Shown: positions 13,255 to 56,679 of the stretch, piece after piece
Layout of the letters: each line of letters opens with the position of its first letter
Position numbering within the stretch: the stretch's first letter is position 1
Source: Conchocele bisecta
Lineage: Eukaryota; Mollusca; Bivalvia; Lucinida; Thyasiridae
Direction: 5' to 3'
DNA: 64,000 nt
Assembly (NCBI GenBank): GCA_029237695.1
Contig: CM055271.1
Span: 31,926,462 to 31,990,461 of the forward strand
Program-made: the position numbers and the translations under genes
Notes under the pieces: generated by a model
Told to the model about the DNA's origin: nothing
What the model saw: only the letters and a program-made list of their open reading frames with translations
The model's database searches: none

Positions 13255-14172
13255 TCATTGTCGTTGCATAGTGAGGCGTCTCCTTATTGTAAACGCTTCT
13301 GTTATGAATTTACACAGATTTACCAATTCGCACCTGCTCGTAGATTGTAGTAGAATCGAGAATTTGTACATACTGGGACGGTTGTGATAATAACGTTTGA
13401 TGTATTTCTGTCTAATATTGTCAAAAACCGGGCATCTAATAACAAAATGATATTCATCCTCCAAATCGTTTGAGTTACACAGTTGGCAGAGGCGTTCATG
13501 TCTCACAATTATATTTGCCCCATACCTGCCAGTCTATATTCTTAATGGGTGTGATGATAGCAATAGTTTGCTTATTGAGCATCTCAGCCACCTGTTTCTA
13601 ACTTTGTCCAGATAGCATGAATACTGAAAACATAGTTTGACATATTTATACAATGTAAGTGCTCCATTACTTTGTAAATCGGCTTGCCACTTTTGTATGA
13701 AACAATCAAGTTCTGCTTTCTTAAATAATGCACAAAAATTGTTTTCGGACACTGATTGAGGGTCATTCCAAATATATGAGAATCCCATATTATCAAAAAG
13801 ACTCTTAACCTTGCTTACCCAATTGTTAAGTCCGTTTGTACAATCTAATAGAGCACTATTGTATATCACTTTCAGAATACAAGTTTGCCTTTTAACTAGC
13901 TTAAATCAGTATTTTACCATTCGAATATGTCTGTTTATGTAAAGAGGGTAGCGGCACAGTTCACCATATACACCTACATTGCTAGTAGAAAGTTTTACAC
14001 CTAAAACAGTCTTACAAAACGTGAGGTGAATGCGTTCAATTTCTTTGGATTTTGTGTTACCCCACACTTCACATCCATACGACAGAATTGAGGACACGAA
14101 CGCTTCAAATAGTTGGCACTGTATATGTGGGTTGAAGTCGTAGTGTCTAATGTTCGCCAACAAAGTGTTCAT
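13255..14172 (-). pseudogene. LINE C-terminal region with CCHC-type knuckle
   Basis: The segment SILSYGCEVWG near 14090 is the conserved region after the RT thumb in EEP-type LINEs. Following an in-frame stop, the same frame continues to CQLCNSNDLEDEYHF at about 13485, a Cys-x2-Cys then His-x4-Cys knuckle typical of the 3' end of these elements. The frame ends at a stop at 13255-13257. Confidence 0.75.
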
Positions 14173-15282
14173 GGCTTTTAACGCTTTTCGGTTTTAGTAG
14201 CGCCTGTTGATTGAGAGAAAACGACCCCGTGAAGTTGAAAACGACCCCGAGGTAATTGAAATCGTCTATGACATCAAGTACGTGGTCTTGATAATACCAG
14301 TTTTCGTCCGCTCTAAGCCTGCCTCGTTTTCGGAACACCACCACCTTCGTTTTGCCGGTATTTACTTCAAGTCCCCATCTCGTGCAGTACTCGTACAGTC
14401 GATTAAGGCTTGTTTGAAGTTCGTCGGGAGATTTTGCAAACAACACCATGTCGTCTGCGAATAACAGTAGTAGGATTGTTATATCATCGAATGTCAGACC
14501 ACTGTTAATGCTGTCTTGTAAATATAGTTCCAAATCTTCTATAAACAGGGCGAACTAATATGGGGGACATTATCTCCCCTTGACGTAATCCGAGCGAGAT
14601 TTCGAAAAAATCGGTGTACTGACCACTGTGCTTTCACACATGACTTTACAGTTTTATATATCCCTCGTACAATCCGTAGCATTTTCCCGTCCACCCCGAG
14701 ATGATGTAATTTCAGCCATAATCCGTTCCGGTAGACAGAATCAAACGCCTTCCGCAAATCTATAAACGCACAGTAAAGTCTTTGTTTCCTGCTAAGCATT
14801 CTTTCAATAACGGAGTTCAATACAAATATTGCGTCTATCGTCGATTTACCCTTTTGGAACCCGAATTGCGCGTCTGATATAACATTGTTGTTTTCACAGC
14901 ACTGGCTTACGCGGTTATTTAACACACTCGTGAACAATTTCCCCAGAAAACTTACTAATGTTATACCTCTATAATTGTTTGTATCTTCTGCGTCGCCCTT
15001 GTTTTTATACAGCGGAACTATGAAACCTTCGGTCCACTTGTCCTGGAAATATCCAGTGTCAAACACCATGTTAAAAATGTCTGCCAAATGTGCCGAAATA
15101 ATATCTCCCGCCTCCAAAAAGAATTCGTTCAGTATATGGTCCTCGGCTTCGGCCTTTTCCCTGTTGAGTTTTCGAATCGCCCTATCCACTTCCGGTATAG
15201 TAATGGGTTGGTCCAGCTCTTCAAATGTTGCCTCCGGTGTGTTGAAATCGTGTGTGTTGTTGAATAACACTGCAGTCTCCAA
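14147..15282 (-). pseudogene. LINE reverse transcriptase domain, broken
   Basis: The RT fingers and palm are readable: NYRGITL near 14960, QFGFQKGKSTIDA near 14860, FIDLRKAFDSV near 14750, then, after a frameshift close to 14535, the catalytic FADDMVLFA near 14450 and the primer-grip-like TGKTKVVVF near 14360. The two halves are in different frames, so the copy is inactive. A further frame change near 14170 leads into the C-terminal part. Confidence 0.9.
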
Positions 15283-15410
15283 GTGTGTTTCGTGTATTTC
15301 ACTAGACAGGTTCTTAAAATATGTGTGAAAGTCGTTTGCTGATATATTTGATGAGTTTTTGTTTTTTCGTTTAGAAAAATATTTCCAGAAATCCTTTGGC
15401 TTTTTTGTTT

Positions 15411-16640
15411 TCAGATTTTCAATTTCCTTTGCTTTTGTGATTTTGTATTCCGTGCAACGCGCTTAAATGTCTTTTTACAGTCGCTCAATGTGTGTCTATT
15501 TGCACTCGACTTTGTAGCGTTAAATTCCGACAACGCATTTCTGTACCGTTGTTTCGCTGCTATACAATCAGCGTCAAACCAGCCGTGATTGTTTCCCTTG
15601 TACCGCGGACTGCTAGTGTCTCTGTGTATTTTGTGTTTACTAAATAGGGGATCGGTGACATTGCGTATTGTATTGACGAATTCTGATATCGTGTCGTTCA
15701 CCGTCTGCTCACTGGCTGTATCGGAATTTATATTTGTTGTAATCATATTCAAACTTGGCAGGCTACTGATTATGCCATTGCGAAAGTTATCTCGTAGATG
15801 TTCACGCCACCTATATACTGTTTCATCGCGATGAGTTTGTAAACATGCTGGCGGGGTACACGCAATTGTGAAGGTTAACGGTGCATGATCATTGAATTCG
15901 TTGAAATTCTCTACTCTAAAATTAATCACCGAGTTAAAGTCACGCTCTTTCAATAGTAAATAGTCTATTACACTGCACCCCTGGCGATTGTAGTATGTAT
16001 ATGCACCGGTCATGTGATCGTCTCCTAGGCGCCCATTGGCCAATCGAAGGGACGTCGCTTTGCACAAGTCGATTAGTTTGATTCCCTGCGCGTTTGTAAC
16101 CGTGTCCTGGGAAACTCTGGCTAGTGGCGAATCCGGGATATAGTCGTCACTGTCTAAGTCACGCATGCACCTGTCTAGCACAATATGGTCTGCTTTACAC
16201 GAAACTCTCGCATTACAGTCCCCGGATATTACTATAGTGGATGTCTTCTTGCAAAGTTCGATATAAATCCGCATCTGTGACGTTTCTAGCTGGAGAATCA
16301 TCGCCCCACAAATATACTCCACACAGATATATGTCCTCAGTATTACGAAAGAAGCGACGGTCTAATTTTAACCACACTATTGTGTCATAATGGTTCCGTA
16401 TAATTTGTATTCCGTTTTTTATATTGTTCTTACAGTAAATCACCAGCCCCCGCTGTTTCTACGCGCCCGCCTATGTTTGAATTTGCGATACAGGTTAAAA
16501 CACGTATAACCACTCAGTTATACATCGCTGTTCTCGTCTGTCCATGATTCCGACAGTATTATTATATCGTGTCCATTTAATATTTCCGAAAAATCTGAGT
16601 CCCGTTGTTTGTCATACATGAAGTAATATGTGCTAGAAAT
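15411..16640 (-). pseudogene. LINE endonuclease (EEP) domain, broken
   Basis: This segment encodes the AP-endonuclease-like domain that nicks target DNA before target-primed reverse transcription. Visible motifs are DIIILSESWT near 16560-16590 (the catalytic Glu), YLCGVY, ISGDCNAR around 16210 (the catalytic Asp/Asn of the GD.N motif), VIDYLLL near 15960, and NDHAPL near 15880 (usually SDHxP, with the catalytic His). The frame changes near 16320 and near 16440, and a stop lies upstream of that, so no functional protein can be made. Downstream of the domain the frame continues through a basic linker to a stop at 15411. Confidence 0.85.
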
Positions 16641-18910: not shown

Positions 18911-19049
<139 letters not shown>

Positions 19050-26620: not shown

Positions 26621-26701
26621 TTTAGTACTAAATCCCATATATTACCTGTACAGTACATGTACTTTTACATGTAGGGGGGGGGGGGGGGGGGGGGGGGCAA
26701 A

Positions 26702-26735
<34 letters not shown>

Positions 26736-27015
26736 GGGGGGGGGGGGGGGGGGGGGGGGAATCCCAATGAATATTTATAATAAAAAAAACTATATTCAGC
26801 CCTGAAATCAGAATGATCCTGCTCTGATGCCAGGTCCTCGCCACACCAGAATCACTTGGCCCCCTCCAAAAAGCTGTAGGATCTTTCTACTTTTATAATG
26901 GGCAATAACCCAATTCAACTCCCAGGTAACAAAAAGAGCCAAAGGTAAAAACGTACCTGAGGGCCAAACCAGGCAAATCGTTATTCCTACAAGGAGGAAC
27001 CCCACCGTTAATTTA
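26621..27015 (-). repeat. Rep-G family copy containing a long poly-G tract
   Basis: This is a reverse-oriented Rep-G copy: TTAGTACTAAATCCCATATA at about 26625 and CAGGTCCTCGCCACACCAGA at about 26832. A G tract of about 80 nt (26674-26759, broken by CAAA and one T) replaces the short C-rich CCCCCC word found in other copies, so the tract is an expanded form of a family feature. Confidence 0.7.
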
Positions 27016-37647: not shown

Positions 37648-39316
37648 GACTTTATTTAAAGAGGGTTACACATTTAGTTATAAACTAATCTTCCATGAGG
37701 CCCTCACAGACTTACATACATGTATATACAAAATGTACAGAGTTAAAGGAAAAGTTTAAAACATGACGCAACAAGCAAACATACATTTGTACAACCAACC
37801 CATGGCTAAACACTGGACTCAAACATTTCTCCAAAACCTGCAGCTGTCAATTGCATAGACAGACATAAATGGTTGGCATACAATCGAGAGATGAAAGCTC
37901 TTAACTTTTTGGACGCTAGCGATGAAAACAACAGCCAAATATGTCATGGAATTTCATTAGAACTGCGTTGTGACAACGCAATTCTAATGAAATTGCATGT
38001 CATATCTTCACAGTATTCAGAGAGCAATAAGAAAATAAGATAACAAATTGTCGGCTGCTGATTTTTTACTATTTATAGTCATTTATTTTTCAGCATGCAA
38101 AGCATTAAAGTGTGATAGTCCATCTGTTTTCCCTGCTGATGTCTATACTTCAACAACACACATACAATCACATACAATCACATAGCAATAATTGTGCACA
38201 TACAAAATGTACCATCAATCTTCCAATGGTAAACACACATAGACATACACTATATATATACACACACATTCATTATATTAATATATAAGATGCGAAATTA
38301 CACGGAAAGTCGTAGTGTCAATGACATAATTCTCCAAATCATTTTGCTTTCATCCATTGAATGCATTGGCAGTGAAATTTTGTGGCAGTATCTATTGTTT
38401 TTAAATAGGCAGGTAAACAGTTCCAAATAATAGAGCCAGAATATGATATGCTTTGTTTGAAGATTTCTTTATGTGGTCTTGGAGTAATATAATTTTTGGA
38501 GGTTGTGGATCTTAATGTTGGTAAATTTTCATTGTGTGGTCTTAAGTGAAACAATTCATTAATGTAACTTGGTGTTTTATTTCTATTAACATTAAACATA
38601 AATTTGGCTTTTCTTAAGAATATACGTTCATAAACACTTAATATTTTTAGTTCTTCCATGCTTTTAACTATATCAGTATACTCATAATCTAGAATTATTT
38701 TGCAGGCTCGTTTTTGCAGGTTGTACAATCTGGTCAGATTGGTCTGAGATGTACCTCCCCATATAATACTACAATAGTCAATATGTGGCTGTATGTATGT
38801 TTTGTAGAATTGTACGCGGTGTTCGAACGACAAAAAATAATGTTTTATTGTGCTAAGAAGCCATAAATTGGTTGCAATTTTCTTCGCTATTTTGTCGGTA
38901 TGAGTTGACCAGGTTAGGTTATTATCGATATGAACACCTAGGATTTTGTCATTAGATACAGTATTTAAAATTTCACCATTAAGTTTTAATCTCAAACAGT
39001 TAATGTCCAAACGTATTTGATTTTGGTGCGTAGTTACTAACATTACCTTTGTTTTCGTTGCATTAATAACCATTCCATTTTTAGTACACCACTTTGACAG
39101 TTTTTCTAGTGCATTTTCAAGATTTGATTTTACCGTTTGTATTGATTTGCTCATTTCGTAAAGTGTTGTGTCATCAGCATATAAGTCAGTGTTAACTACG
39201 TTTGTGTATAAAGGCAAATCGTTTATAAACAGTAAAAACATAAGTGGCCCTAATATAGAGCCCTGAGGGACCCCGGATGTGATGAACTCTGATGAATTTG
39301 TCGTGTCTTTATCATG
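37611..39316 (-). mobile_element. 5'-truncated CR1/jockey-like LINE with (ATT)n tail
   Basis: On the minus strand the element runs from a truncation near 39316 through the C-terminal RT coding region, about 700 bp of 3' UTR and a microsatellite tail (AAT repeats on the + strand at 37611-37648). 5' truncation plus a simple-repeat tail is typical of CR1-group insertions. The UTR contains a hairpin at about 37960-38012 (TTTCATTAGAACTGCGTTGT and its inverse). Confidence 0.85.
38339..39304 (-). pseudogene. LINE reverse transcriptase, C-terminal part, frame intact but truncated
   Basis: The frame encodes the palm-to-thumb half of a jockey/CR1-type RT. SGVPQGSILGPLMFLLFIND at about 39210-39290 precedes LYADDTTLYE (about 39175, the catalytic YADD motif), then TKTKVMLVTT (about 39045), ILGVHIDNNLTWSTH (about 38925) and QPHIDYCSIIWGG (about 38770), ending at a stop at 38339. 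The 300-plus codons lack stops, so the insertion is fairly recent. The upstream fingers and the endonuclease are missing. Confidence 0.85.
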
Positions 39317-41018: not shown

Positions 41019-41239
41019 TCTTGCCCTGTGCAGTTTGGCTCTGTTCGATCCTGGTTCAGTGATGGGTTAGGCACTGATTGAAAAATAATATTAAGCTTGA
41101 TTTATACAAAATATCCTGGTAAATACAGGAAAACATCAAGTAAACAATGGAACTGCATTCAGCATAATACTCAACATGCATATGATAAACTAGCATGTGT
41201 GCCAGAAACCGGGATATAAAACTGTCAATACTTTTGCAG

Positions 41240-42948
41240 ACATGTTTAATTCGAGGGCGTCCAATCGGAGCACAAGACCGTACACTTTGTACCAGCCATC
41301 ACCCAGTGTCCACACATCACCAGGACGTCAGTCGTTCGCTGGGGTAAACATGCTGACAACTCGCCCATCACTGAACCACAGACCTGATCCTATTGACATG
41401 AGAAACCAGTTCCTTGGAAAGACAGATACGGCAAATACACAACAAAACATTATATCAGCAGTTAGAGATTCGGTGAATGTGAGCAGAAACTTACAGTCTG
41501 CATTCTACACCAACAGTCAGCAGAATAGTCCACATGATCATGATGATTCTCCGACATTTGGTATTCAACCATGGTCACAGATTCATCGATGGGGTCTTCC
41601 TTCCCAGGAATCTGCAACTCGAGATTGTATAAACCGTCCTATTGTCTATTCACAAGGACTTCACTCGTCAAGTACCACAGCCACTGGGCTACCCTCACTA
41701 GCTTCACACACAAGAATTGTGCAGTCGGGAAGTTCATTAACACAGAGCATTAATTCACAGCATTTAAGTACTACAGGAATGCTGTCTCCCGATGCTCCAT
41801 ATCGGTCCACAGGAGATGCATTCATGTATACACCTAACATTCACTCAAATAGAAATCCATATGTGAATCAATTCTGCCAGGGTGCAAACTTGCAGTATTC
41901 TAAGTTTCAAAATATAAACTTCCCATTGAAAATGGTTAATGATCATTGTACTTTGAAAGAAAACTCTACAGCCACTAACATGATTTCAGATCCAAAATAT
42001 GAATCCCATTCTATCGGTACCGAAAATTTATATGCATCTGTCAATGGTTGCCTAATGCACATGAGACCAGGTAGTGACTCTTGTCCACCATGCTGTGCAT
42101 TGCCTTGTTGTGAAAGTGATTCAGCCTATTGCCAACAAGGACAGAAACATTCCAGTATTGTTATAAATGGTGGTTGTGCAGATTCCAGGACAAATGTTGT
42201 AATTAACCAAGGCCCTATGCCAGTTGGAGGTAGTATTATAAACAACACTGTTTCGGGCTCCAACAAACCTACTCAATCAAATGCTCACAGTCTGTTACAA
42301 CAATGTCCGCGTAAAACAGCAGAATATGAGAATCCTGTACACACGTATATGACAAGTGACAAAGTAAGCACAGACCATTTCCAAGCCAATGCCAGCGAGT
42401 CTACTTGCATGAATCCGCAGTCTGAGGAGCCACATTTAACTGGAAATGCCTTGTCATATGCACCACTTAATTCTAGAGACAAAGAGAATGTTCTGTATTA
42501 TCCAACAGGCAGAATCCCAGAAAACTCAAATTCGATATTGGCCTTTAGAATCCTGAAGGATATAAACAATTGTTCCAAGGAGACAAACATTAACAGTACT
42601 TCACAATATGACACAAAACTGAATTCTTACAATTTTAGGAATCTTTCACCTGAGCTACTGAAAACTAATAAGAAATCACCTAATAAGAAAGAAGTGGATG
42701 CTGACAATCTGAACAGAAGTATAATATATGCTAGCCCGTCACCTGTCACCCAACCCAAGATGTCAAATCAAAGTAGTTACAGCGGGCATCATTCTCCGTC
42801 GCAGATAGGTGTCGCAAACATGGGAAATAATTGTCCAGATCTGTCAAAGATGTCGCAGTCTGTCGGTGTTTTCCATACAGAAATTAACATCGAAAGGCCA
42901 ATAGCTTTGCCAAAGATACCGAAAGTACCAACAAGGAACACCAGGTAG
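41240..42948 (+). CDS. Zinc-finger gene, exon A (N-terminal disordered region)
   Basis: A good acceptor, ACTTTTGCAG, ends at 41239; the first ATG in frame follows at 41242, so it can be an initiator or an internal Met (exon entry phase 1). The frame runs 568 codons to a CAG|GTAGTA donor at 42944/42945; without splicing it stops at TAG 42946-42948, formed by intron bases. The product is Ser/Asn/Thr-rich and lacks a known domain, with a cysteine cluster CPPCCALPCCESD near residue 281. Splicing to 47007 preserves frame (phase 2). Neighbouring exons encode zinc fingers, so a nuclear DNA- or RNA-binding role is inferred for the whole protein. No ortholog was recognised. Confidence 0.75.
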
Positions 42949-42961
42949 TAGACCTCCTGGT

Positions 42962-45900
42962 ATGGATGGAAATTCTTGTGCAGGCTCAACAAGGAGTAAA
43001 TCCAATTTACTGAGGAAACTCCTTGCTATGTGTAATGAATTGGAGACCCGTACTGCTCATAATCCTGGGAGCCGATCTTGTGAATCAGAAATTCTTGAAA
43101 CAGGCTCAGACAACACAAGTGCTAGGAACACAAAAGCTCCTGAAAGTTTGGGTTCAGATTTCAATAATAATGTGATTTCTGAAAATATTGTTACCTCATC
43201 AGTTGGTGCAGAGAATGAACTTCAGTTAGGTCTTAAGATGAGAACAAGTAAAGAAAGAATGAGTAAACTTTATCACCACACAAAAAGTACTGAACGTTGC
43301 ATTGAGGATGATTCTAATTGTGACAGCAAATGTACATCGTCAAATAACACATTTACCAGGATTAGGGATTACCAAAATTGTGAGATTGTAAAGGAGTGTT
43401 CATATGATACACCAAATGGTACTGATGTAGAAAACAGTGGATATACATATGTGATTGTTGATTCAAATAAAACAAATAAACTAGAAAGCACATGTAATTA
43501 CAGTGGCAACTCCCTTAAAACTGATGAAGTACTCAATGGCAGCATGACACAAACTGTTGCAGACACAGACACCAGAGTGGGTACCACAGACAGCAGTGTT
43601 GATAAAGCTGAACCAACATTTACGTATGTTTTACTATCAGATACTGAAGATACATCCGATGAAACACCAAAATTCACATATGTTTTATTGTCTGATGATG
43701 AAATAATGTGTGCAGATAAAACAGTGGAACAAGAGAATGGTAATGAGGTAGAAAATAATGATGTTGGTAAACTAACAACACACAATGCAATAGAGGAACA
43801 TATGTACATTGAAGACAATTTGAAATCAAACAGGAATAATCACATTAATAGGAACAATAATAAGGCAAATAATGACTGTGAGACTACAATGAACCTATCA
43901 GAAAAGGGACCAGCTAACATTGCGGTACATTCCAAATCATATGAAAAATGTCAACATAGAAACACAACCAGGGCAAGCATCATTGATGTGTCAGACAGTG
44001 ATGCTAGTACGATTTCAGCTTCTGAGGACAGTAATATCTCGTCATCTACATTTCTGTATAGCGATTCCTGTGATTCAGAGTCTTCTAGTGCTTCGGGGTG
44101 CAAGCAGAAGCGTGATAATCTTCGTAAGAAAAACTGGAAATTATATGAAAAATCAGACACATTTGATTATTCAAATTCTAATTTGACATTACATGGAATT
44201 ACAAAGAAATCAAGTAGGAAACTGACAACAGGAAGTAAATCCAATTACAAATTACGTAAGATGGCTGCTTCAAAACAGCAATTATCACCATACACAACCA
44301 GTCCTATAGAAGGTAATGCTCTGACTGATAACGTCTCTCTTCCCAGCTCTCTAGATATATCAATAATGGAAGAGTTAACTGGTAATGAGTTACAACTTGA
44401 CCTGAAGAACCATAGGCAAAGCAGAAGATTGACATGTAGACAAAGGCCTGACTATTCTATGATTGTACAGCAAAGGCCTCCGACCAGTAGATTCCATCAA
44501 GCGAAGAAAGATCTTCCTGAAAAGGACAAACTACAAGAGGAAATTAGTGCTCCAAATTACTTCAAAACTCTATCTGAGGAGGCAGGGAGTTGTAAAAGTA
44601 ACGAAAACCACACTACCTTAAAATCAAGAAGACAATGTCCTGAGAAATTAAAGGAAATGAAAGGACAAGATATAACCCATGATGCTAATGATCTGAGCAG
44701 AGAACTTGATCAGTTTATGTTGCGTAGAAAAATGAGATCTACCGCACTAGAATCTTTCAGCACATCATTGACAGAATCAGTAAGATTGAACCTTCCAGGG
44801 AACACATTTGCCAGTGATTTGAATGACATTTATGGTGAAGCTTTGAGCAATTCGCGTGATATGTCCAATGCCATTGATAACAGAGACAGCGATGCAGATG
44901 GAATGGATGATAGTGAAGTTCAGAACAAAATAATGTGTGATATAAATAGTGTCGTGAATTCTAAACCCATTGAAATGATGGATACAAGTGACCAATCAGA
45001 GCAACATCCAATACATACTAATGTAAACTTTGTATATGAAAGAGATCTGAGGCAAACAGATATACGGAGCTGGGTTAAACAGTCGCACAAAATAGATTCT
45101 GGAAAGCCAACTATTGCTTTCATACAACCAACTGAATCACCAATGCCAGTATTGAGTAAAGTGAATGGATTGCGACAAAATAACACAGATTGTTTAGAAA
45201 GCAATGAAATGTGTCGGAAGGAAACCAACAATAATCTGATGCATGATTCTAGTATTGGACTGATGCCAGTAGACCATTTATGTAGTGACCAGTTGGAAGA
45301 TAATAATGGTGTTGGCAATTTCTTGGAATCTCAGTATCTGTATACTGCCTACTTACTACCTGATAAACAAACATCTGCAGAAACAGGTAATGATTTGTCA
45401 AATTCATATACTGATAGTGATTCAAGTGAGCATATTAATGCTGTACATTTACATAAGCCGTCAGTTGAACAAACTGACAAGGAGACGAACTTGGTGAAGT
45501 ATGTATCTGCTAATCAAATGAGTTTTAGAAGAAATGAACATAAAGCACAAGCTAAGCAATCAAGTGAGTTGTCAACAATGGGAAAGTCAAATAAATTGGC
45601 ACTTGAACAAATTAATATTGGGAAATCAAATGAATTTGCTGTTGAACCAATAGCGAATGGAAAATCAGACGAACCATCAGTTAAACATGTATGTAAACGT
45701 GGTGAATTGCCAAACAATCAAATTAATTATGCACAGTCAAATTCCGATCAAGGCAAGCAAACAAATGTTCAAAACACGTTAACTCGACAAGTACTGAAAG
45801 ACTGTAAGGGTCTCAATGAATATGAAGATGAATTGACACCTTCAGGAGAACGGAATAAACATGGCTTTGAAAATGTATTTCTGGATTTCATTAACCTTAA

Positions 45901-47011
45901 AAAGAGTGTAAAAGAACGTACAAACAATTGTTCTAATAAAATGAATAAAAAAGCAATTAAACATCAGCACAGAGTGGAAAAGTACCGTACAACCAATTAC
46001 CATAGGTCCAAGAAAAGGCAGCTGGCCATGCTAGCGTTGATACTGAGTGCCGGAATGAAGCCACCGTCACAGTGGCTGCTTGAATCCTGCAGTGACGGCA
46101 GCACTACCGAGAGTGATGAGGAGGAATATGCAACACACAGAGAAATAGTGAGACGGCTGAAATTGGATTCTGCGGAGATGCGAGGTCGGAATAAAGGTGT
46201 TGAAGAACATGACAGTAGTGATGTTAGAATGGAAATACATGATCAAACTGGTGCTTGCAAAATCCTAAAGGATGCAATGTGTCAGACTGAAGACCATATT
46301 CATGAGCCCATTGAAAACACAGGAGAAAAAGAAGAACAGGATGAAGTCATTGGCGAGAAAACTAATAATGAAACTTACAAGTCAAAGGAATTCATATTGG
46401 AACGAAATACTGACCTAACCTGTGATAACAGCAATAGTTACAAGTCTCATTCAGATTCTGAGGAAGAACATTCTCATGCAGCTATGAATCTACCTGCAAA
46501 GGCAAGCAGCATACTGGTAGCTGATCATTTTACGAATGAACTGAAACAAAACTCGCAACGAGCAATGAAATCTTTGAGGCCACGTATGTGTTCAAAGAAA
46601 CATTCCAATAGAACATCTAGAAACAACCATTCTGTGACCCAACCAAGGCAGAAAAACATAATGAAACATACATTATTAAGTGATAAGCAGCTAAGAAGTG
46701 AACATGTCCTAGAGCCAACAGGCATTTCAACAGAAAGATTGGAGACAACAAAATATGTCGGTCATAGAAATAGAGCGAGTGATGTACAAATATCACTAAA
46801 GCTTTTACGATGTGATGAAAATGAATCTCCTGTGGTTATGAGTAGAGGGACAGATAACAACTACAAATCAAATAAAGGGCAAAAGAATACTACACAGTCG
46901 AGCTATTGTTCATCTTCCAGAAAAGTAAGTGATCTTTTAAGCCCGAGTGAGTACATTCTCAGTCAAGATGCCGTAGGAAAGCAGCCAGAACTAGCAGCAC
47001 TACAAGGTTGA
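42962..47011 (+). CDS. 1349-codon open frame inside the exon A-exon C interval
   Basis: An uninterrupted frame from ATG 42962 (in the +1 frame relative to exon A) to TGA 47009-47011. Random AT-rich DNA could not stay open this long, so it is coding. The product is acidic, Ser/Asn/Glu-rich and probably disordered. FTYVLLSDTED and FTYVLLSDDE are an internal repeat (about 43618-43700), with a weaker GYTYVIVDS upstream; GKSNK/GKSNE/GKSDE repeats lie near 45590-45670. A more conserved-looking block QLAMLALILSAGMKPPSQW is at about 46020. No zinc finger is seen. A strong acceptor (TTCTTGTGCAG, end 42983) lies just inside and has the same phase as exon A's acceptor. A GTAAGT donor-like site is at 46925. 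It is either an alternative exon of the gene or part of one frame-shifted exon. Confidence 0.75.
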   Translation: MDGNSCAGSTRSKSNLLRKLLAMCNELETRTAHNPGSRSCESEILETGSDNTSARNTKAPESLGSDFNNNVISENIVTSSVGAENELQLGLKMRTSKERMSKLYHHTKSTERCIEDDSNCDSKCTSSNNTFTRIRDYQNCEIVKECSYDTPNGTDVENSGYTYVIVDSNKTNKLESTCNYSGNSLKTDEVLNGSMTQTVADTDTRVGTTDSSVDKAEPTFTYVLLSDTEDTSDETPKFTYVLLSDDEIMCADKTVEQENGNEVENNDVGKLTTHNAIEEHMYIEDNLKSNRNNHINRNNNKANNDCETTMNLSEKGPANIAVHSKSYEKCQHRNTTRASIIDVSDSDASTISASEDSNISSSTFLYSDSCDSESSSASGCKQKRDNLRKKNWKLYEKSDTFDYSNSNLTLHGITKKSSRKLTTGSKSNYKLRKMAASKQQLSPYTTSPIEGNALTDNVSLPSSLDISIMEELTGNELQLDLKNHRQSRRLTCRQRPDYSMIVQQRPPTSRFHQAKKDLPEKDKLQEEISAPNYFKTLSEEAGSCKSNENHTTLKSRRQCPEKLKEMKGQDITHDANDLSRELDQFMLRRKMRSTALESFSTSLTESVRLNLPGNTFASDLNDIYGEALSNSRDMSNAIDNRDSDADGMDDSEVQNKIMCDINSVVNSKPIEMMDTSDQSEQHPIHTNVNFVYERDLRQTDIRSWVKQSHKIDSGKPTIAFIQPTESPMPVLSKVNGLRQNNTDCLESNEMCRKETNNNLMHDSSIGLMPVDHLCSDQLEDNNGVGNFLESQYLYTAYLLPDKQTSAETGNDLSNSYTDSDSSEHINAVHLHKPSVEQTDKETNLVKYVSANQMSFRRNEHKAQAKQSSELSTMGKSNKLALEQINIGKSNEFAVEPIANGKSDEPSVKHVCKRGELPNNQINYAQSNSDQGKQTNVQNTLTRQVLKDCKGLNEYEDELTPSGERNKHGFENVFLDFINLKKSVKERTNNCSNKMNKKAIKHQHRVEKYRTTNYHRSKKRQLAMLALILSAGMKPPSQWLLESCSDGSTTESDEEEYATHREIVRRLKLDSAEMRGRNKGVEEHDSSDVRMEIHDQTGACKILKDAMCQTEDHIHEPIENTGEKEEQDEVIGEKTNNETYKSKEFILERNTDLTCDNSNSYKSHSDSEEEHSHAAMNLPAKASSILVADHFTNELKQNSQRAMKSLRPRMCSKKHSNRTSRNNHSVTQPRQKNIMKHTLLSDKQLRSEHVLEPTGISTERLETTKYVGHRNRASDVQISLKLLRCDENESPVVMSRGTDNNYKSNKGQKNTTQSSYCSSSRKVSDLLSPSEYILSQDAVGKQPELAALQG

Positions 47012-47995
47012 GCACGAGACGAGTACCAGTCAGTTCAGTTGACAACAAATGTATAACCAGAAACTGTAACATGAAACTAAAAACTAAGGCAGCAATGTGT
47101 TTGTTAGCCAGTATAGAAAATCATAATCGCTTCTATAAGGCTAATGAATGTTCTGTTGAAGGAATTCAGAACAAAAAACTTGACGAAGAATGTCCGTCAC
47201 AAACATGTTGCAACTCCAATGGAGTTGATGATTCCATCAGGACATTCGGTTATAATGGTAAGAGGAGAAATACCACAGTTACAAAGAGCTCAGACAGGAA
47301 AAAAAGTGACAACAAAAGTCGACAAACACAAGGTGAAGAAAGAGTCTTGGATGGCGATACTCAAAAATATAATACAAAACATGTGAATGTTGGTAAAAGT
47401 AGTTCAAATTTTAGACGAATCACACGCTCATGTTTATCATGTAATGTAGAAATATCACAACAGAGAATTGACAGTGGTAAGCTGCATGAAACACAGTGTT
47501 TATTTTGTCATAGGCTGTTAAAAAATAAGCACTACTTGAAGCTGCATTTAAAATGGTGCAAATTGAGTCCGAATTACAAATCTGTTGAGTACCGTGTAAA
47601 CAAGAATGGCAAATCTTCCAAAATGACACATTTATTACGTAAATCGTGGAATACAATTAGAAATTGGAATCGTATTTCAACAAGTGCCAATTGTGTACTA
47701 TCCGCATTGGAAGATGTTGAGAATGAGTGTGCGATACAGGAAAACCAACAGTCACTAAAAGACAATGGACAAGGCCCCAAACCGTCCAGTTATCTAGAAT
47801 ACGACCAAGATTCACCCATAGTGAGGCCAAAAACATTAGTTGTTCAGATGCGGAGAGAAAATATTCAGAAAATGGTTGACGAAAACAATGCAAAGGATGT
47901 TGAAAATAACCCCACTATCGAAACTGCTGCTAAGAAGAGAGTATCCGCTATTGATCCAGCCACAAAAGCAGACATTGGGAAAATCAACCGAAAAA
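47007..47995 (+). CDS. Zinc-finger gene, exon C (C2HC finger)
   Basis: The exon begins after CACTACAAG (AG at 47005-47006) and is read in the same frame as exon A once 42945-47006 is removed. It ends at AAA|GTAGGT (47995/47996, phase 1); unspliced, the frame would stop at TAA 48022. The product is Lys/Asn-rich with a CLSC pair at 47431 and a finger CLFCHRLLKNKHYLKLHLKW then C (47497-47562), C-x2-C-x12-H-x3-C. Joining to 54128 gives a continuous frame (codon A|AA, Lys). Confidence 0.75.
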
Positions 47996-48235
47996 GTAGG
48001 TTTACTGATTCAACATTAACATAATTTTCTTGGTAGTTCTTCTGTTTATGCTATTAGATATAGTCGTGCCCCAATTTCTGTACATCCTACTAGAGTATGA
48101 GAGGGCATGCATGCACTTCTTAGCGATGAGTCCATTATTAGGGATTCATATCTTAACCCATTACATGCGGAATACACCTTTACGGGTATGAATTTTTTTT
48201 TAATTCTTTATTTTTATGTTTGATACATGTAAGCA

Positions 48236-48440
48236 TTAGGAACACATTCAATGAAAGTATAATGTTGTGACCCACTCATTTGAACAGCATTAGGAACACA
48301 CTCAATGAAAGTATATGTTGTGACCACTCATTTGAACGGTCTCAACGAGGCGGTTCAAATGGTGGTCCTAACATATTTCTGAGCTCATATAAAGAAAATA
48401 TTTCGGATTTTCCACAAACAAAATGGCATACATGTATCCT
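48236..48440. mobile_element. FB3 foldback, copy a
   Basis: TGTTGTGACCACTCATTTGA then ACGGTCTCAACGAGGCGGTT forms the family hairpin. The left part is partly duplicated (ATTAGGAACACATTCAATGA and ATTAGGAACACACTCAATGA). The right arm is CAAATGGTGGTCCTAACATA. Confidence 0.65.
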
Positions 48441-49106
48441 CAGCATGTAATAGGTTAACAGTGAATGTTACTGGGATTGACACCTGATCCATATAGTAAG
48501 GGTATCTGGCAATGGATCGGGGCTGAATTTTAAGCCCCACCACTTCTCCATCCCAAAATTTCCGTCTGTCACTAACTCGTAAAACTTTTAAACCGTAATA
48601 GGTAGAGAGCTGAAATTTGGAGTAACGTCCTTATGGTGTTTATATGCGCACATGTTGATTTATAGATTTTTTATGCTACCTCTGACCATGGGTTGTATCC
48701 CCATTTTGGACTTACAATTTTACAATTTTGCCTTGTAACTCGTAAAGCTTTTACACCGTAATACATGTTTAGAAAACGTGTTAGAGGATCAGTACGACTT
48801 CAATGTATGTATGTTGTTATACATATGCATTTAATAGAACATACCATTTGGTTGATTTAATATGATGTTTATTAAACTTGTAAACTTCTAATAATTAGCA
48901 TATTAAAGCTACATGCCCACTCAGTAGGCACAAAATGTTCTTTATATGAATTAAATAAGTGTATAATTGTGTCACTATTCCACCAGTTCTAAAAATTACG
49001 AGTGACCGTTATACAGATATATAATCATTTACTAATCTTTATTTTACTAATATTGACTCGTGGTGGTATCAGGCTATTTTCATATGCAAATGAGGCATGA
49101 TATTTT

Positions 49107-50286
49107 TATGTTCCCTGCAAAAATATTTTCGCGGGGAGCATATAGTTACCGCTTTGTCCGCCGTCCCAGTTTTACGTTAAAGTTTTTCAAATTGCTATAT
49201 CTCTGTGACTGCTTGGGATATCAACTTGAAACTTCATATCCACATTGATCACCATGCATATTTTAATTGTATACCCTACTCATGCTGCCCAGGAGCCCAA
49301 GCTCAAGGTCAAATAACTAAACGTTTTGTTAAAGTTTTACATTTAAGTTTTTCAAATTCAATTAAATTCAAATTAGCATCCAAATATTTATTGTGACTAA
49401 TAAACAAAACATTGCGTTAAACCTTTCTAGAATTTATCTTATGTTACCAATTGAGATTATGATGTGAAACTTCATATATACACATTTATCACCATTTCAG
49501 GCTGTCCATTATCTATAAATTCCTATAAATTTGGCAATCCCTATATTTTCCCTATATGTTCCCAAAATCCCTATAAATCCCTATATTTTTCAAAAATCAG
49601 TAGCTAATTTTTGTAAAATGCTCAAAATCAAGTCTGATATTCAACTTACTGGTTTATTCTAAACACAGTGCAAGGTTAGAGATGCATTGACTAAATTATG
49701 ATCGTATTTACCAGTTTTCTTTGTTTGGATCATGTTTTATCTCGTAAGATGTGTAATTCAGTATTTTCAGCAAACATTTAAAAAAATTGCCATCCTTAGT
49801 TTACCGGTAGCTGATTGAGATGATGTAACATTGTGTTTTAAGTCTGAGTTGTCTTGCAGTGGCTCAACCTGTTTTAGAAAATAAAAAATAAAAATTAATC
49901 AAGTTAATAATTGTAAACCATTTAAAAAACAGAGGAGAGGATACGGAATGGCTATAAGGGGAGGAGGCCATTAATCTAGATTTATAACTCGAAAAAATCC
50001 TTTACGTACACACATACATGCCGTAAAATTGGAAAATATTGAGTTTTGTCCCTATAAATCCCTATTTTTTTGGCAAAAATCCCTATATTTATCCCTATAT
50101 TTTTGGAAAAAAATCCCTATATTCCTATATATTTGGAACCGAAAATGAATGGACAGCCTGCCATTTATATTGCTTAATAAGCATACTTCATCAATACCCA
50201 GGGTCAAGGACTTGGTGAATTTCAATCCAGGCGTCGTCGGGGAGCATTTGTCGGATTTACCAACCATCTACTTTAATTATTTATAC
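49107..50286 (+). mobile_element. Helentron-like element with GGGGAGCAT ends, split by a TIR element
   Basis: After ATTTTT it begins ATGTTCCCTGCAAAAATATT with partner CGCGGGGAGCATATAG, then TTGTCCGCCGTCC, GTTAAAGTTTTTCAAATTGC and CTTGAAACTTCATATCC. Its 3' part, after the inserted element, has CAGGGTCAAGGACTTGG and CGTCGTCGGGGAGCATTTG (the latter inverse-related to the start). A TCTTGTT terminus is not visible. Confidence 0.5.
49498..50160. mobile_element. 663-bp TIR element flanked by CCATTT
   Basis: CAGGCTGTCCATT at the left is exactly inverted as AATGGACAGCCTG at the right. CCATTT abuts both ends (49492-49497, 50161-50166), suggesting a 6-bp duplication. The subterminal regions are rich in CCCTATA(A/T) words on both sides (about 49540-49590 and 50050-50120). 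No transposase. Superfamily not assigned. Confidence 0.75.
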
Positions 50287-50335
50287 TAATTAAATGCGTC
50301 GAATGAAAAAATAATATTTTCGACATTATTAAGTA

Positions 50336-50525
50336 CAGTGAAACCTCTCTAAACCGGACACCACGAAAACAGCTGTGATCTTATTTTTGATTGGTGTAAT
50401 ATATCTCAGATTACAATGTATGTTCATGTCTTAGAATGCGCATATGCCTGATTAACAGTAGGACATCTCTATAAAGTGGACACCCTGGGGAGCTTCCATG
50501 ATGTGCGTTTAGAGAGGTTCCGCAG
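50336..50525. mobile_element. 190-bp pogo/Tigger-like MITE at a TA site
   Basis: CAGTGAAACCTCTCTAAACC at the left and GTTTAGAGAGGTTCCGCAG at the right are inverse-related, with TA on both sides (50334-50335, 50526-50527). The subterminal GGACACC and GTGGACACC words are typical of the invertebrate CAGTGAAACCTCTCT family. The empty site is visible in another MITE-A copy (TAAAGTATGATCATTG at about 3945). Confidence 0.7.
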
Positions 50526-50575
50526 TATGATCATTGTACATAAACAAAATAATACAGAGCATAATATACATGTAG

Positions 50576-51095
50576 GTATGAATGGCCTTTTTGTGGAATT
50601 TATCGGGGTATAAACTTGGAAAAACCACTTTCACAATTGGCGATAAAAATAAACAATTGGCATAATAAAATTCAATTTTCTATTTTTTTTTTCTTTTTTT
50701 TTTCGAAAATTGTAATTTTTTATCGCCAATTGTTTATTTTTATCCTATTGATTATCATAGGAATGAATTGCCTTTTTGTGGAATTTATCGGGGTATAAAC
50801 TTGGAAAAGTCGCGGGAATACTGGACGATCCATCGACTTTTCCAAGTTTATATCCCCGATAAATTCCACAAAAAGGCCGTTCATTCCTTATAATTCCAGC
50901 ATTTGAAATAAATTCAACAAGAAAATGTGTTTATTTTCCGTTTTCTTAAGAATTATTTTAACTGCGCCTCACAGTTACGGAAAGTAGTTTGACGTGGGAG
51001 TTTACTGGGATATAAATTTTGGACGAGAGACTTGCTACGGGCCAATCAAATGTTAGGGAATTGTGTAAATATTTTTGTGCTGGAATTATTGGCTA
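50576..51095 (-). mobile_element. FB1, copy d, with nested hairpin and partner unit
   Basis: A first partial arm (TATGAATGGCCTTTTTGTGG at 50577) is followed by a separate AT-rich hairpin (TTGGCGATAAAAATAAACAA near 50637 and its inverse at about 50720-50745). A complete FB1 hairpin follows at 50757-50895 and the partner unit at about 50889-51092 (ATTCCAGCATTTGAAATA to GTGCTGGAATTATT). The hairpin centre is shortened. Confidence 0.75.
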
Positions 51096-51243
51096 TTATA
51101 AGGTTCGACAATGTCCAGCCGTGGGTAAACCTTTGTCGGGGCACGAATTAACTGTTTGAACCCCAAGGCCGTAGGCTGCGGGTTCAAACAGTTCCCGAGT
51201 CCCACGGCAACGTTTACCCACAGCTGGATATGGTCGAACGTTA
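51096..51243. mobile_element. 148-bp foldback
   Basis: GTTCGACAATGTCCAGCCGT and GGGTAAAC are inverted at 51210-51238 (GTTTACCCACAGCTGGATAT then GGTCGAAC). The inner AACTGTTTGAACCCC and GGGTTCAAACAGTT form a second stem around 51150-51195. Confidence 0.75.
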
Positions 51244-51726
51244 TTGTGACATTTCCGTTGGAAATATCGTATAATTTGAGCATATAATTATGCAGTACTT
51301 TCGGTACTTTGATAATCTGCTCCATTCAAACAGCTGATTTACACATACATATTCAGGGGCCACAGTACACGCAGCGTAATGCAGTCGCATCAATTTCATA
51401 ATTTCAGTGTGACTGTTGTGAACTGGTTTGGTGACGTAATGGCGCGTTCTCGTAACGTCATGAAACACATGCATTACGTAGGTGTTGGCTTGGCCCCGGA
51501 ATGAGCATTGTCTATACAGCCTTGCATGTGCTGTACGTTTGAACACGGCTGTGAGCGGTGTCGAACAATGAGTCATGTAACAATAGCAATTTTATGCCCT
51601 ACCATTATAGTGGAGGGTCCATTTAGCGTTAACCATTGTCGGTCTGTCCTTCCTTTCTGCCCTGTCTGTCCGTCTGTCGTCTGTCAGCAAGCACAGTTTG
51701 TGGAATGATAATACGATACTGCCATA

Positions 51727-51830
51727 TATATGGTTGTGACTGGAGAAACGGTGCTTACAGGATTTGTGATCAGTATAGCTGGATCACAAAACCCATAATC
51801 ACCATTTCTCCAGTTACAGCCATAAATGGT
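51727..51830. mobile_element. MITE-T deletion derivative
   Basis: The TIRs (TATATGGTTGTGACTGGAGA; CTCCAGTTACAGCCATA) are only about 60 bp apart, so the centre is lost. GATCAGTATAGCTGGATCAC marks the deletion join. Confidence 0.7.
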
Positions 51831-51894
51831 AATACGATGCCACCATTTATAGAAAGCAGTTAAATTAATTTAAATAAAATTAAATAATTAATCA

Positions 51895-52330
51895 AAGAAT
51901 TGGTGGGTGGTTGGTCGGGCTAACGTGATGGTGTAAATTAACGGTGGGGTTCCTCCTTATAGGAATCACATTTTGCCTGGTTTGGCCCTCAGGTACATTT
52001 TTATCTTTGGGTCCTTTGGTAACCTGGGAGTTGAATTGGGTTATTGCCCATTATAAAAGTAGTAAGATTATTACTGATCCTACTGCTTTTGGGAGGGGGC
52101 CCAAGTGATTCTGGTGTGGCGAGGACTTGGCATCAGATCAAGATTATTTTGATTTCAGGGCTGAATATATAGTTTTTGTATTGTAAATATTCTGTTCTGA
52201 TTTTGGGATTTTTTCCTCATGGAACATGTACATGTACTTGTACAGGTAATATATGGGGTTTAGTACTAAACCCATTGACCCGGCCTTAAATGACCTTAGG
52301 CCGTTAAACCCCAACAAACAAGCAACATAA
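51895..52330 (+). repeat. Rep-G family copy
   Basis: TTAACGGTGGGGTTCCTCCT at about 51937, AGGTACATTTTTATCTTTGG, GTAAGATTATTACTGATCCT and GGGGTTTAGTACTAAACCCA, ending GGCCGTTAAACCCCAACAAA. It closely matches 39685-40140. Confidence 0.7.
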
Positions 52331-52574
52331 TCAGAGAATTTAACAAAAACTAGGGTTCATGCTGATTGTTATCCCCTGGCTGATAGGCAAGAGGGGATAT
52401 AGCATTTGTCCATGTACGTACATACTTGGCTACGTTAGTAACACCTTTAATTTTTATCACGCCCGCTTGTGGTTTGCGTGATATAGTTGCCGTTTTTTGC
52501 GTGCGTCCGACATTTGCGATAACATCTCCAACACCGTAAGTCCGATTGACTTGACACTTCAAATACCTCTTTTT

Positions 52575-53010
52575 ATCCCGTCAACACAGTGCGTATGTGC
52601 CGTGAAACACGGTGCCGTGAAACATTTTTGATATCCAGTCAATACTATTTTTGCATTTTACAGCCATTTGTAGGTGTTGACGGGATAAATAGAATAGTAG
52701 GTTAGTGCCGTGAATGGGAAAAAATATCTGGCGCGGCACGGAAACGGGATGTGCTCGGCAGAGCCCCGCCCATCCCGTTTCCTGAGCCTTGCCAGATATT
52801 TTTTTCCCATTCACGGCACTAACCTACTATTCTCTATCTATTTTCCTTATTTCTGAACCAAAGTATATGTTGTGACCACTCATTTGAACCGTCTCGGCGA
52901 GACGGTTCAAATGAGTGGTCACAACATATATTTCTAATGAGAAATAAATAAATTCCTGAGCCTTGCCAGATATTTTTTCCCATTCACGGCACTAACCTAC
53001 TATTCTCTAT
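52575..53010. mobile_element. FB2 copy c with an inserted FB3 hairpin
   Basis: The order GTGCCGTGAAACACGGTGCC, TTGACGGGATAAATAGAATA, GTGCCGTGAATGGGAAAAAA, centre, inverse arm, FB3 hairpin, second inverse arm (CACTAACCTACTATTCTC) repeats that at 2604-3008. The FB3 hairpin (52865-52929) has perfect 31-bp stems starting ATATGTTGTGACCACTC and a GGC loop. Confidence 0.8.
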
Positions 53011-53400
53011 ATCATCATCCATCTTTTCATTCTATAGTCCACCCATGCGGCAGCCCCCATGCCAATGATCAAGGTCAAATTACTTTGAAATTTGCGTTAA
53101 TTTGTTTTTTGTACAATCTGCGTTATAAAGTTTTTAAGTACCCAATATTTCAACATATGACTTCACATACCTCTTTATCATCATCCATATTTTCAATCTA
53201 TAGACCGTCCATACGGCACACATGCCCAAGTTCAAGGTCAAATTACTTTGTAATTTGCATTAATTTGCAAAATCTGCGTTAAAGGTTTTAAGTATCCAAT
53301 ATATCTCCACAATACGATTGCTCCAACCAGACACATAGATGCTGGGACCATCAAATGCCTCAGCGGGCATGATATGCTGGCCGTGGCCATTTAATTCATT
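53011..53400 (+). repeat. Helentron-like 3' fragment, two tandem units
   Basis: Units with CATCATCCATCTTTTCATTC and CATCATCCATATTTTCAATC (about 53010 and 53173) contain AAGGTCAAATTACTTTG. The end GATATGCTGGCCGTGGCCAT near 53371 resembles the terminal GGCC palindromes of H1 and H3. It follows a related 5' part at 52455-52575 (ATCACGCCCGCTTGTGGTTT), now separated by FB2. Confidence 0.5.
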
Positions 53401-54127
53401 AACTCATTAACGTCTTCACCAATTTGGATAATATTTGGCATACGACCCACCAAACTGCCCATGGTCAAGATCACTGAGGATGTATGTTCACCTTGTTTGT
53501 AAGGCAAATTTGTAAGGCAAAAGAACCAACGTCTGACAGTCCAAGGTCAAGGTCACTGAGGACTTGTATGTAAGGCAAAAATGTTAAGTTTTTTTTCTCA
53601 ATATCTTGTGAACCATTTCACGGATTATGATAATATTTGGCCACAGTGTGTGTCATGGGATGATTTGCTTTACATTCGAACCATGTCCGACCGCTCAAGG
53701 CCAAGGCCGACTCACTGTTTGCAAACAGTATGATTGAGGTCTGTAGTGTTGAAAGGGTTTATTGAACTCGATCCATTCAAATGAGTGTCACTGTTCATGG
53801 GCTGGCTCTGGTATTACCAACCTTGCTGCTTCACCATTTTCCATTCTATTTGATTTTTAAAAAAAAATCCTAAAATTGTTGAAATTTGACACAAAATTCA
53901 GAGCTCATGTAAAATTGGAATCTGCCATCACTCTTAAATTCTTCGTCAATTTCCAACATCGTTTATAGAAAATATTTTCAAAATACGACAATATGACCAG
54001 GGATCTAATTTCAGAGCTTGTCACATACAGTTTCTTGTAGATATAAGAAAATATAATGAAGGAAATGATTGAATTTTTTTCCCAAATCAATATGTGGTAT
54101 GTTAATTAGTATTCATACGATTTCCAG

Positions 54128-56679
54128 AAGTAACTGATTCACAAACCTGGACGAGGCAATCGTTCTACAAATGCAGTCGCTGTAAATACTCTACGTCGAA
54201 CAGGAGAGGCTACGACAAGCATCTCTACTATCACACAACACGCGAGTCTCGGACATGCGTACCATGCAATAGGCTGTTTGGTAGTCTTCAAAGCTATAGA
54301 TACTTTCATACTTTGAACAAATTAAACCATGAATGTGTTGAAAATACTGATCAAGAGGCAGGTGATATAGATTCACCAGGGATTAATGCAAACAAAGATG
54401 GTAAAATCATTTCTGGACTTGACAATGGACATAATGATGAAAGTGTTGATGTGATTTTTGGAGAACAAGCTGATTCTGTATTTGAAACGGAAACAATTTC
54501 AGATGGCCCATTTCTGAAAGCTGCCACAGAGCCATTTCTGAAAGCTGCCACAGAGATTCATGTTCAACGAATTACCGAGGCCAATGGTGAAGAATCTGTC
54601 ATAGCTATTGTTGAAAATACCAGTGGAGATTCAGATGATGATTTTAATGAGACCAATTCTTACATAGTTAGTCTAGAGCCTGACAATAATGTTAATGAAC
54701 CAAATCATTCTGATGTAAACATTCCATTGGAATACGTAGAATTGAAATCTGAATTTTCGACAATGAAAACCGAAGATAATGTAATGAACATGGACTATAA
54801 CTATGGCTATGAAACAAGTACATGTATTTCCAATATGCCAGCTGATCCATATGCAATAAAGTGTGCATACTGCGGACTTTCTGTTTTCTCCTTTGAAGAG
54901 TTAAACTTGCATGTAGTTGATAACCATACACCACATCGTGACAACAGAGAAGTTAAACACCCGAAAAATCACAGTATGTATTATGACCACAGTATGGGTG
55001 TTGATGGGAATAACAACACTGCGATGGATTTATCATTCAAAAAGTGTGGTGAGGATAGTTTGGGAACTTGCAAAATTCCATCTACAACTCAGTCTGAAAA
55101 TGTATTTTTTGAAGCTAATGAAACTGAAAATTTAAATATATCAAATGTAGATGTTAAGATAAAAATTGAACTGGATGCTAATTTTGACAGCAGTGAGAGG
55201 AAATACTACGGTGGTAATGGACAAGACCCGGTTTGGAACAATGCAGTCGAGCATGAACCTACTGGCAGTAATGGAGCTAACAAAGAAAACTTAGAAAACG
55301 CTAGAAACGATAAAACTAATACTGGAAACATGAGAATTAACAGCAGTAGTAGTAATAGTGATGACTTCATAAAACGTGAACCTGGTGATGGTGACGATGA
55401 TAAAGCGAACAATAACAATCCAAATCCTAATGACAGTAGCTCTAAAACCAAAGATACTGAGCTACTTTTGTGCTTGATTTGCCATACAAGTTTTTCAATT
55501 AAAGCAGACCTTTTGAAGCATCTGGTGAAAGTTCACAAGTTAACCAATCTCTGCCAGCTGTGTTACTTCAGTGATGGTGAAATCACCAAGTTTGCGAACG
55601 CGGTCTCGTTACGGAACCACAAGCTCCGCTACCATCCCCAGGATATGGTGCTGTGTGTCTGTGGAAGTCTCCTTATTGATGAGAAGATGTTACTGTCTCA
55701 CCAGAGGAAATTTAAATGCATTGAGAATGGTAACAATGATATGGTGAAGTGTGTGTGTGGAAAGCGCTTTATCAATAACGACATGTTGTTGGCTCATCAG
55801 TCAAAGTGTCGTAGGAGACACACATCTGATGAAATGGAACAGAGGAACATATGTATCAAGCGAGGAAAATCTCGAAGTAGGCGGAACAGCGCGACAAGCA
55901 ACAATGATAGCACATTCAAGGACATTAAGCAGAATTTTGACCATTATGACTACATGGCTCCTTCAACATCTGGATCTGTATCTTCAACAAGTAAAAGGTC
56001 AAGGTCGTATACCCCAGTGTGCAAGTCAAGTGATGCTGTTAACAACAATTTATTAAGTGCTATCAAAACACAACTTGACACAAAAGCAAGCGCTACTCCA
56101 CAAAGGAAAAGTAAAACATCATCTTCAAAGAAGCGTAAAACGTCTTCAAAAGTTGAAGACCTCCAAAATAACAACTTTACACCAAAACGTCTGTTTGGAA
56201 TGGATATAGCTGTCAAAGGAACACCCATTTCTACCAAAATGAGTATACAAGCTCTTAGAGCATTGCGTGACAATTCAAATACAAACATTGGTAATTCAGG
56301 TGATGGCTCCGAGTCGTACAATGCTGTCAAACCAAACAAACCAGCTGCTGACATTACACCATGCAGTGTGACGCCTACACCAGCAGCAAGTATGACATCT
56401 GCCGGTGCTGCCTCACAAACCAATGAATCAAAGAACACCGTACCTCGCACAGGTAAAGAAGTAATTAAAACGGGAAAGGCAAAGGACAAGGCAAAACCAG
56501 CGAAGAAGAAAGGTCGTAAATGTGCGAAGCCGGACGAAGAAGGACGATACCCGTGTAAGGTGTGTAGACGCCGGTTCAAACGTCCCTACCTGTACGTGCA
56601 CCAGAAGTGGTATCATCAGAAGAAGCAATGGATCCTTGTACCGACTTCCTGGACGAAACCCAGGAAAGGTAAACGATAA
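54128..56679 (+). CDS. Zinc-finger gene, last exon (seven C2H2/C2HC-type fingers)
   Basis: The exon starts after CGATTTCCAG; from GTA at 54130 it encodes 849 residues to TAA 56677-56679. Fingers by exon residue: 15-35 (CSRCKYSTSNRRGYDKH, C-x2-C-x12-H-x3-H), 245-266 (CAYCGLSVFSFEELNLH), 448-469 (CLICHTSFSIKADLLKH), 475-502 (CQLC, long loop), two C-x-C fingers in series (CVCGSLLIDEKMLLSH, CVCGKRFINNDMLLAH) and 809-827 (CKVCRRRFKRPYLYVH). Between fingers the chain is acidic and Asn/Ser-rich. Basic SKKRKTSSK and AKKKGRK stretches look like nuclear localisation signals. It is probably a nuclear nucleic-acid-binding protein. The tandem C-x-C fingers are unusual. A run FLKAATEP/FLKAATEI is duplicated near residue 135. 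No ortholog was recognised; no canonical AATAAA is evident just downstream. Confidence 0.9.

Follow-up and report, generated by a model that had tools for sequence, protein, structure and literature searches.

The window analysed here, a 64,000-nucleotide stretch of the Conchocele bisecta genome, contains a locus at which four long open frames succeed one another on the plus strand. Frames A, C and D lie in frame 1 and frame B lies in frame 2; A overlaps B by 44 nt and B overlaps C by 61 nt. The frames, together with the intron and exon that link C to D, are the following.

41194-42948, plus strand: frame A, open frame in frame 1
42905-47011, plus strand: frame B, open frame in frame 2, 1368 codons from stop to stop
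46951-48024, plus strand: frame C, open frame in frame 1
54106-56679, plus strand: frame D, open frame in frame 1
47996-54127, plus strand: probable ordinary C/D intron with the ends GTAGGT ... TTTCCAG, from its splice scores and non-coding ends
54128-56679, plus strand: exon D, which encodes C2H2-type zinc fingers and includes the stop codon, from a PF00096 match and two relatives

The original prediction singled out the interval 42945-47006 as one with perfect intron borders that is itself a single open frame. Inspection of the sequence located both borders, CAG/GTAGTA at 42945 and CTACAAG/G ending at 47006. Removing the interval joins A to C, and recomputation with the exon at 54128 returned exactly the product proposed: 41242-42944, 47007-47995 and 54128-56679 together make 5244 nt, or 1748 codons including the stop, with no internal stop. 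The interval is also open throughout in another frame, as had been stated, with B stop-free and 1349 codons long when counted from its first ATG at 42962, and its first bases do complete the TAG at 42946-42948 that ends frame A. Because A and C share one frame, however, any interval of 3n bases removed between them would join both.

According to one explanation, 42945-47006 is a coding intron whose removal yields a 1747-residue protein, while B serves as an alternative exon or as a separate product. The GT and AG ends and the phase agree with such a model, the spliced form would retain the zinc-finger parts C and D, and the ATG of B at 42962 has G at both -3 and +4. The border pairs, however, are no better than chance. 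Between the A/B and B/C overlap zones there are 15 in-phase GT..AG pairs (17 with slightly wider limits); in 5000 dinucleotide shuffles of these zones the mean was 9.6 pairs, and at least one pair occurred in 99.8% of shuffles. In the stricter form AG/GT..AG/G two pairs were observed, and 16% of the 5000 shuffles contained at least one. Most likely the interval starts with GT and ends with AG by chance.

Splice sites were scored with generic metazoan weights rather than weights trained on this genome, against a background of the 320 GTs and 453 AGs found between 42 and 48 kb. The claimed donor at 42945 scored 1.3, a value reached by 8% of the nearby GTs. The claimed acceptor at 47006 scored -9.1, which 56% of the nearby AGs match or exceed, such that it resembles an average AG; nine bases upstream of this AAG lies an in-phase CAG at 46997, whose own tract is also poor. 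The likely C/D intron scored 3.1 at its donor and 1.5 at its acceptor, placing these sites in the top 3.1% of the GTs and the top 1.3% of the AGs, respectively. An ordinary spliceosomal intron would have both donor and acceptor above background, and 42945-47006 does not; its borders are not the perfect ones that had been described.

A weak acceptor alone is not decisive, as exitrons (exonic introns) also have weak splice sites in the account given in PMC4484396. The interval resembles them in its length of 3n bases, in its position inside a long stretch of coding sequence, in its terminal GT and AG and in the weakness of its splice signals. As that account defines them, though, exitrons keep the frame of their host exon, and their retention never introduces a stop. 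Here, retention of 42945-47006 stops frame A at once at the TAG at 42946-42948, so that the interval falls outside that definition of an exitron (PMC4484396) and retention cannot yield B in frame. A coding intron is accordingly a very unlikely explanation. We consider slightly less likely still its dual-use form, in which removal of the interval would produce the 1747-residue zinc-finger protein, whereas retention would truncate it and B would be translated separately, starting at its own ATG, into a 1349-residue product.

Frame B carries the coding signature of the frames around it. Over 42949-46950 it contains no stop codon, and the other two forward frames contain 83 and 206. Its codon usage correlates with that of A (0.74), C (0.86) and D (0.89), and when B is shifted by one or two bases the correlation with all four pieces falls to 0.15-0.42. 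When the scores were trained on the other three pieces (A, C and D), the average for B was +0.31 bits per codon in its own frame, against -0.21 and -0.36 when read out of it. The codon background included the C/D intron itself, and the value of -0.30 obtained there is not a held-out one.

The coding signal also continues through both junctions. In overlapping 90-nt windows, the positive frame changed from 1 to 2 at the first overlap zone and back to 1 at the second with no gap, and the signal at the B/C zone was the weaker of the two, yet still positive. Stretches from the zones were then compared with 1500 random draws each from other genomic DNA at 23 loci. At the A/B zone, five stretches with lengths of 49 to 346 nt gave P values of 0 to 0.01, and at the B/C zone four stretches of 170 to 245 nt gave 0.005 to 0.041; the ends of the C/D intron were without coding signal (P 0.35 and 0.69). 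The locus therefore shows the pattern by which an assembly-split gene is recognized, a continuous coding signal across adjacent frames with no non-coding gap, although less strongly at the B/C zone.

Ahead of their first ATGs, B and C still show coding scores, over 12 and 30 codons respectively (B being within the training set in this calculation). Such scores speak against separately started products, and we rejected B and C products of this kind; they also count against the coding intron. With border pairs at chance and coding signal through both junctions, neither the coding intron nor the two overlapping products put forward originally find support.

It has also to be asked whether ordinary short introns bridge one or both zones; for the passage from B to C, for example, a donor at 46925 (AAA/GTAAGT) could pair with either of two acceptors, 47139 and 47169. 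This donor, a near-perfect consensus lying within frame B 84 bases ahead of its stop codon, scores 5.6 against 3.1 for the likely C/D intron, and both acceptors bring the frame back. The acceptors, however, are weak (-3.7 and -3.2; all of these scores use the generic weights), and the sequence to be removed looks coding (P 0.019 and 0.005). For the passage from A to B, the best of 146 candidate introns would cut clearly coding DNA, with 0 of 1500 draws reaching the 211-nt and 346-nt cases. Short introns are therefore an unlikely explanation.

Programmed ribosomal frameshifting within a single mRNA, with a +1 shift where A ends and a -1 shift where B ends, would fit the frame relations and the TAG that directly follows the first zone. 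In-phase heptamers of the form X XXY YYZ, however, are absent from 46940-47013 and number three in the whole of B, and a pair of programmed shifts in opposite directions, separated by 4 kb, is not known from any single animal mRNA. We give this mechanism hardly any credence.

The chance-level border pair, the poor acceptor and the coding signal through both junctions together favour one exon with two frame offsets. Here, A, B and C would be parts of a single uninterrupted coding exon, about 6.75 kb long (41242-47995), joined across a normal intron to exon D. A net extra base within 42905-42948 would take the reading out of frame 1, and a net missing base within 46951-47011 would later return it there. 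Both offsets would most likely be leftover single-base indel errors of the assembly. The predicted parts are as follows.

41242-42945, plus strand: piece A of the proposed large exon, frame 1, from the first ATG to the codon before the TAG, 568 codons
42905-42948, plus strand: putative first frame-offset zone, the A/B overlap, with a nearly flat codon-score posterior
42905-47011, plus strand: piece B of the proposed large exon, frame 2, stop-free, with codon usage as in A, C and D
46951-47011, plus strand: putative second frame-offset zone, the B/C overlap, with a nearly flat codon-score posterior
46951-47995, plus strand: piece C of the proposed large exon, frame 1, in which a pattern scan found a single finger-like Cys/His motif

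We regard this reading as probable: a single exon, about 6.75 kb in length, whose two single-base offsets most likely arose as errors of assembly, and a gene product of roughly 3100 residues that carries zinc fingers at its C-terminus. One giant exon with a +1 then -1 change of frame had been among the possibilities originally listed; the single exon and its two offsets are favoured, while the slippery heptamer that a ribosomal change of frame would call for is missing at the B/C zone. Two single-base sequence errors had been listed as well, but simple sequencing slips were considered less likely because no homopolymer sits at either junction. This is correct for the two points chosen there, but the overlap zones do hold short runs, the longest of them three bases (TTT at 42906, AAA at 42912, 42922 and 46978), and errors of the assembly are now the favoured source of the offsets. 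Three-base runs allow a slip without pointing to one, and they are not a classic error site. Codon scores could not fix the exact slip sites, since their posterior is nearly flat across both zones; a slip may sit almost anywhere within the overlaps.

Indels that fragment genes are known from long-read assemblies (PMC12007338). As far as that work describes its cases, the likeness lies in intact-looking pieces in different frames, single-base offsets and a chromosome-scale assembly, and the difference in the sites, which lack a long homopolymer here; the sequencing technology behind the present assembly may also differ. A literature search on frameshifted mollusc gene models matched no paper.

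The offsets could instead be natural, reflecting a frameshifted allele or early decay of the gene in the sequenced animal, in which case this copy would encode a truncated 568-residue protein without zinc fingers. This is what the assembled sequence gives at face value, and each junction is found once in the genome as assembled: a DNA search of the window's own genome (1.89 Gb in 1196 contigs, with the window on contig C7) matched both junctions only at their own locus. Two opposite shifts within otherwise intact frames (1368 and 857 codons), however, are unlike the product of long decay. Assembly error appears preferable to a natural allele because the remainder of the gene is intact, and errors are the most likely source of the offsets; a natural origin has a small but real chance of being correct. 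It counts against the error reading that an intact exon D and long frames A, B and C would fit a low assembly error rate too. The surrounding 274 kb might have served to gauge the indel rate but were dropped, since several of the other long or broken frames there resemble mobile elements in their motifs, and in such elements decay and errors are inseparable.

Joining A, B, C and D through the two offsets gave the 3101-residue protein used in the search for relatives. Asn and Ser are abundant in all four pieces, and the predicted protein is most likely largely low-complexity, ending in C2H2-type zinc fingers. Exon D matched PF00096 with 28.3 bits, above the curated cut-off of 25.2, as a C2H2 zinc finger should; pieces A, B and C differ in this respect, matching no Pfam family at E <= 1. 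Finger-like motifs were picked up by a pattern scan once in C and four times in D, and alignment of D with two related proteins, P0010 and P0011, brought out further invariant Cys and His at about residues 450-570. The zinc fingers suggest that the protein presumably has a nuclear, nucleic-acid-binding role. Two repeats were also seen: an exact 24-base tandem duplication at 54508-54555 in exon D, which yields PFLKAATE twice, and the motif [FY]TYV[IL][LV][SD], which occurs three times in frame B (protein P0002), at residues 180, 239 and 257.

P0010 (52% identity) and P0011 (54% identity), each aligned over 17% of the query, were the two relatives of exon D at E <= 0.001 among the 7986 scored candidates sharing most words with it, and they share with D mainly the finger cluster at about residues 450-570. 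BLASTP of C against P0010, and of B against P0010 and P0011, gave nothing better than E 0.15. The joined 3101-residue protein had no match at E <= 0.001 among 5495 candidates, and the B-C join (1684 residues, of which region 1300-1570 was scored) had none at E <= 10 among 521. No relative covering a disputed junction was found in the searches with the joined protein, the B-C join and exon D. Scans based on the exon D alignment, run over viral contigs (103 pattern matches) and genome contigs (62), confirmed no relatives, and among PDB sequences exon D had weak zinc-finger matches only (best E 0.0035).

Several other features were observed nearby. Very long C and G runs lie at 18912-19049 and 26674-26759, comprising 120 C and 16 C, followed by G runs of 24, 33 and 24. 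Chains of broken frames on the minus strand, at 13255-16361 and 38339-39316, resemble mobile-element reverse transcriptases in their motifs. Downstream of the window, frames occur on both strands at L010:3400-6703 and L011:724-4045; the latter set forms a chain of overlapping pieces with a putative polymerase-like motif. At about 253.7-254.2 kb in window coordinates (the end of L023 and the start of L024) there is a run of 500 N, possibly a scaffold gap.

The observation from which this analysis started was thus accurate, and its striking form is most likely a chance consequence of three abutting frames, the finding itself being most probably an ordinary one. Were the dual-use element real, it would be a stop-introducing coding intron carrying its own long selected frame, and a new way to pack two long proteins into one locus. 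If instead the single exon with two offsets holds, the locus would be a caution that giant low-complexity exons in large animal assemblies may mimic coding introns, because suitable GT/AG pairs are nearly always at hand when two small indels offset each other.
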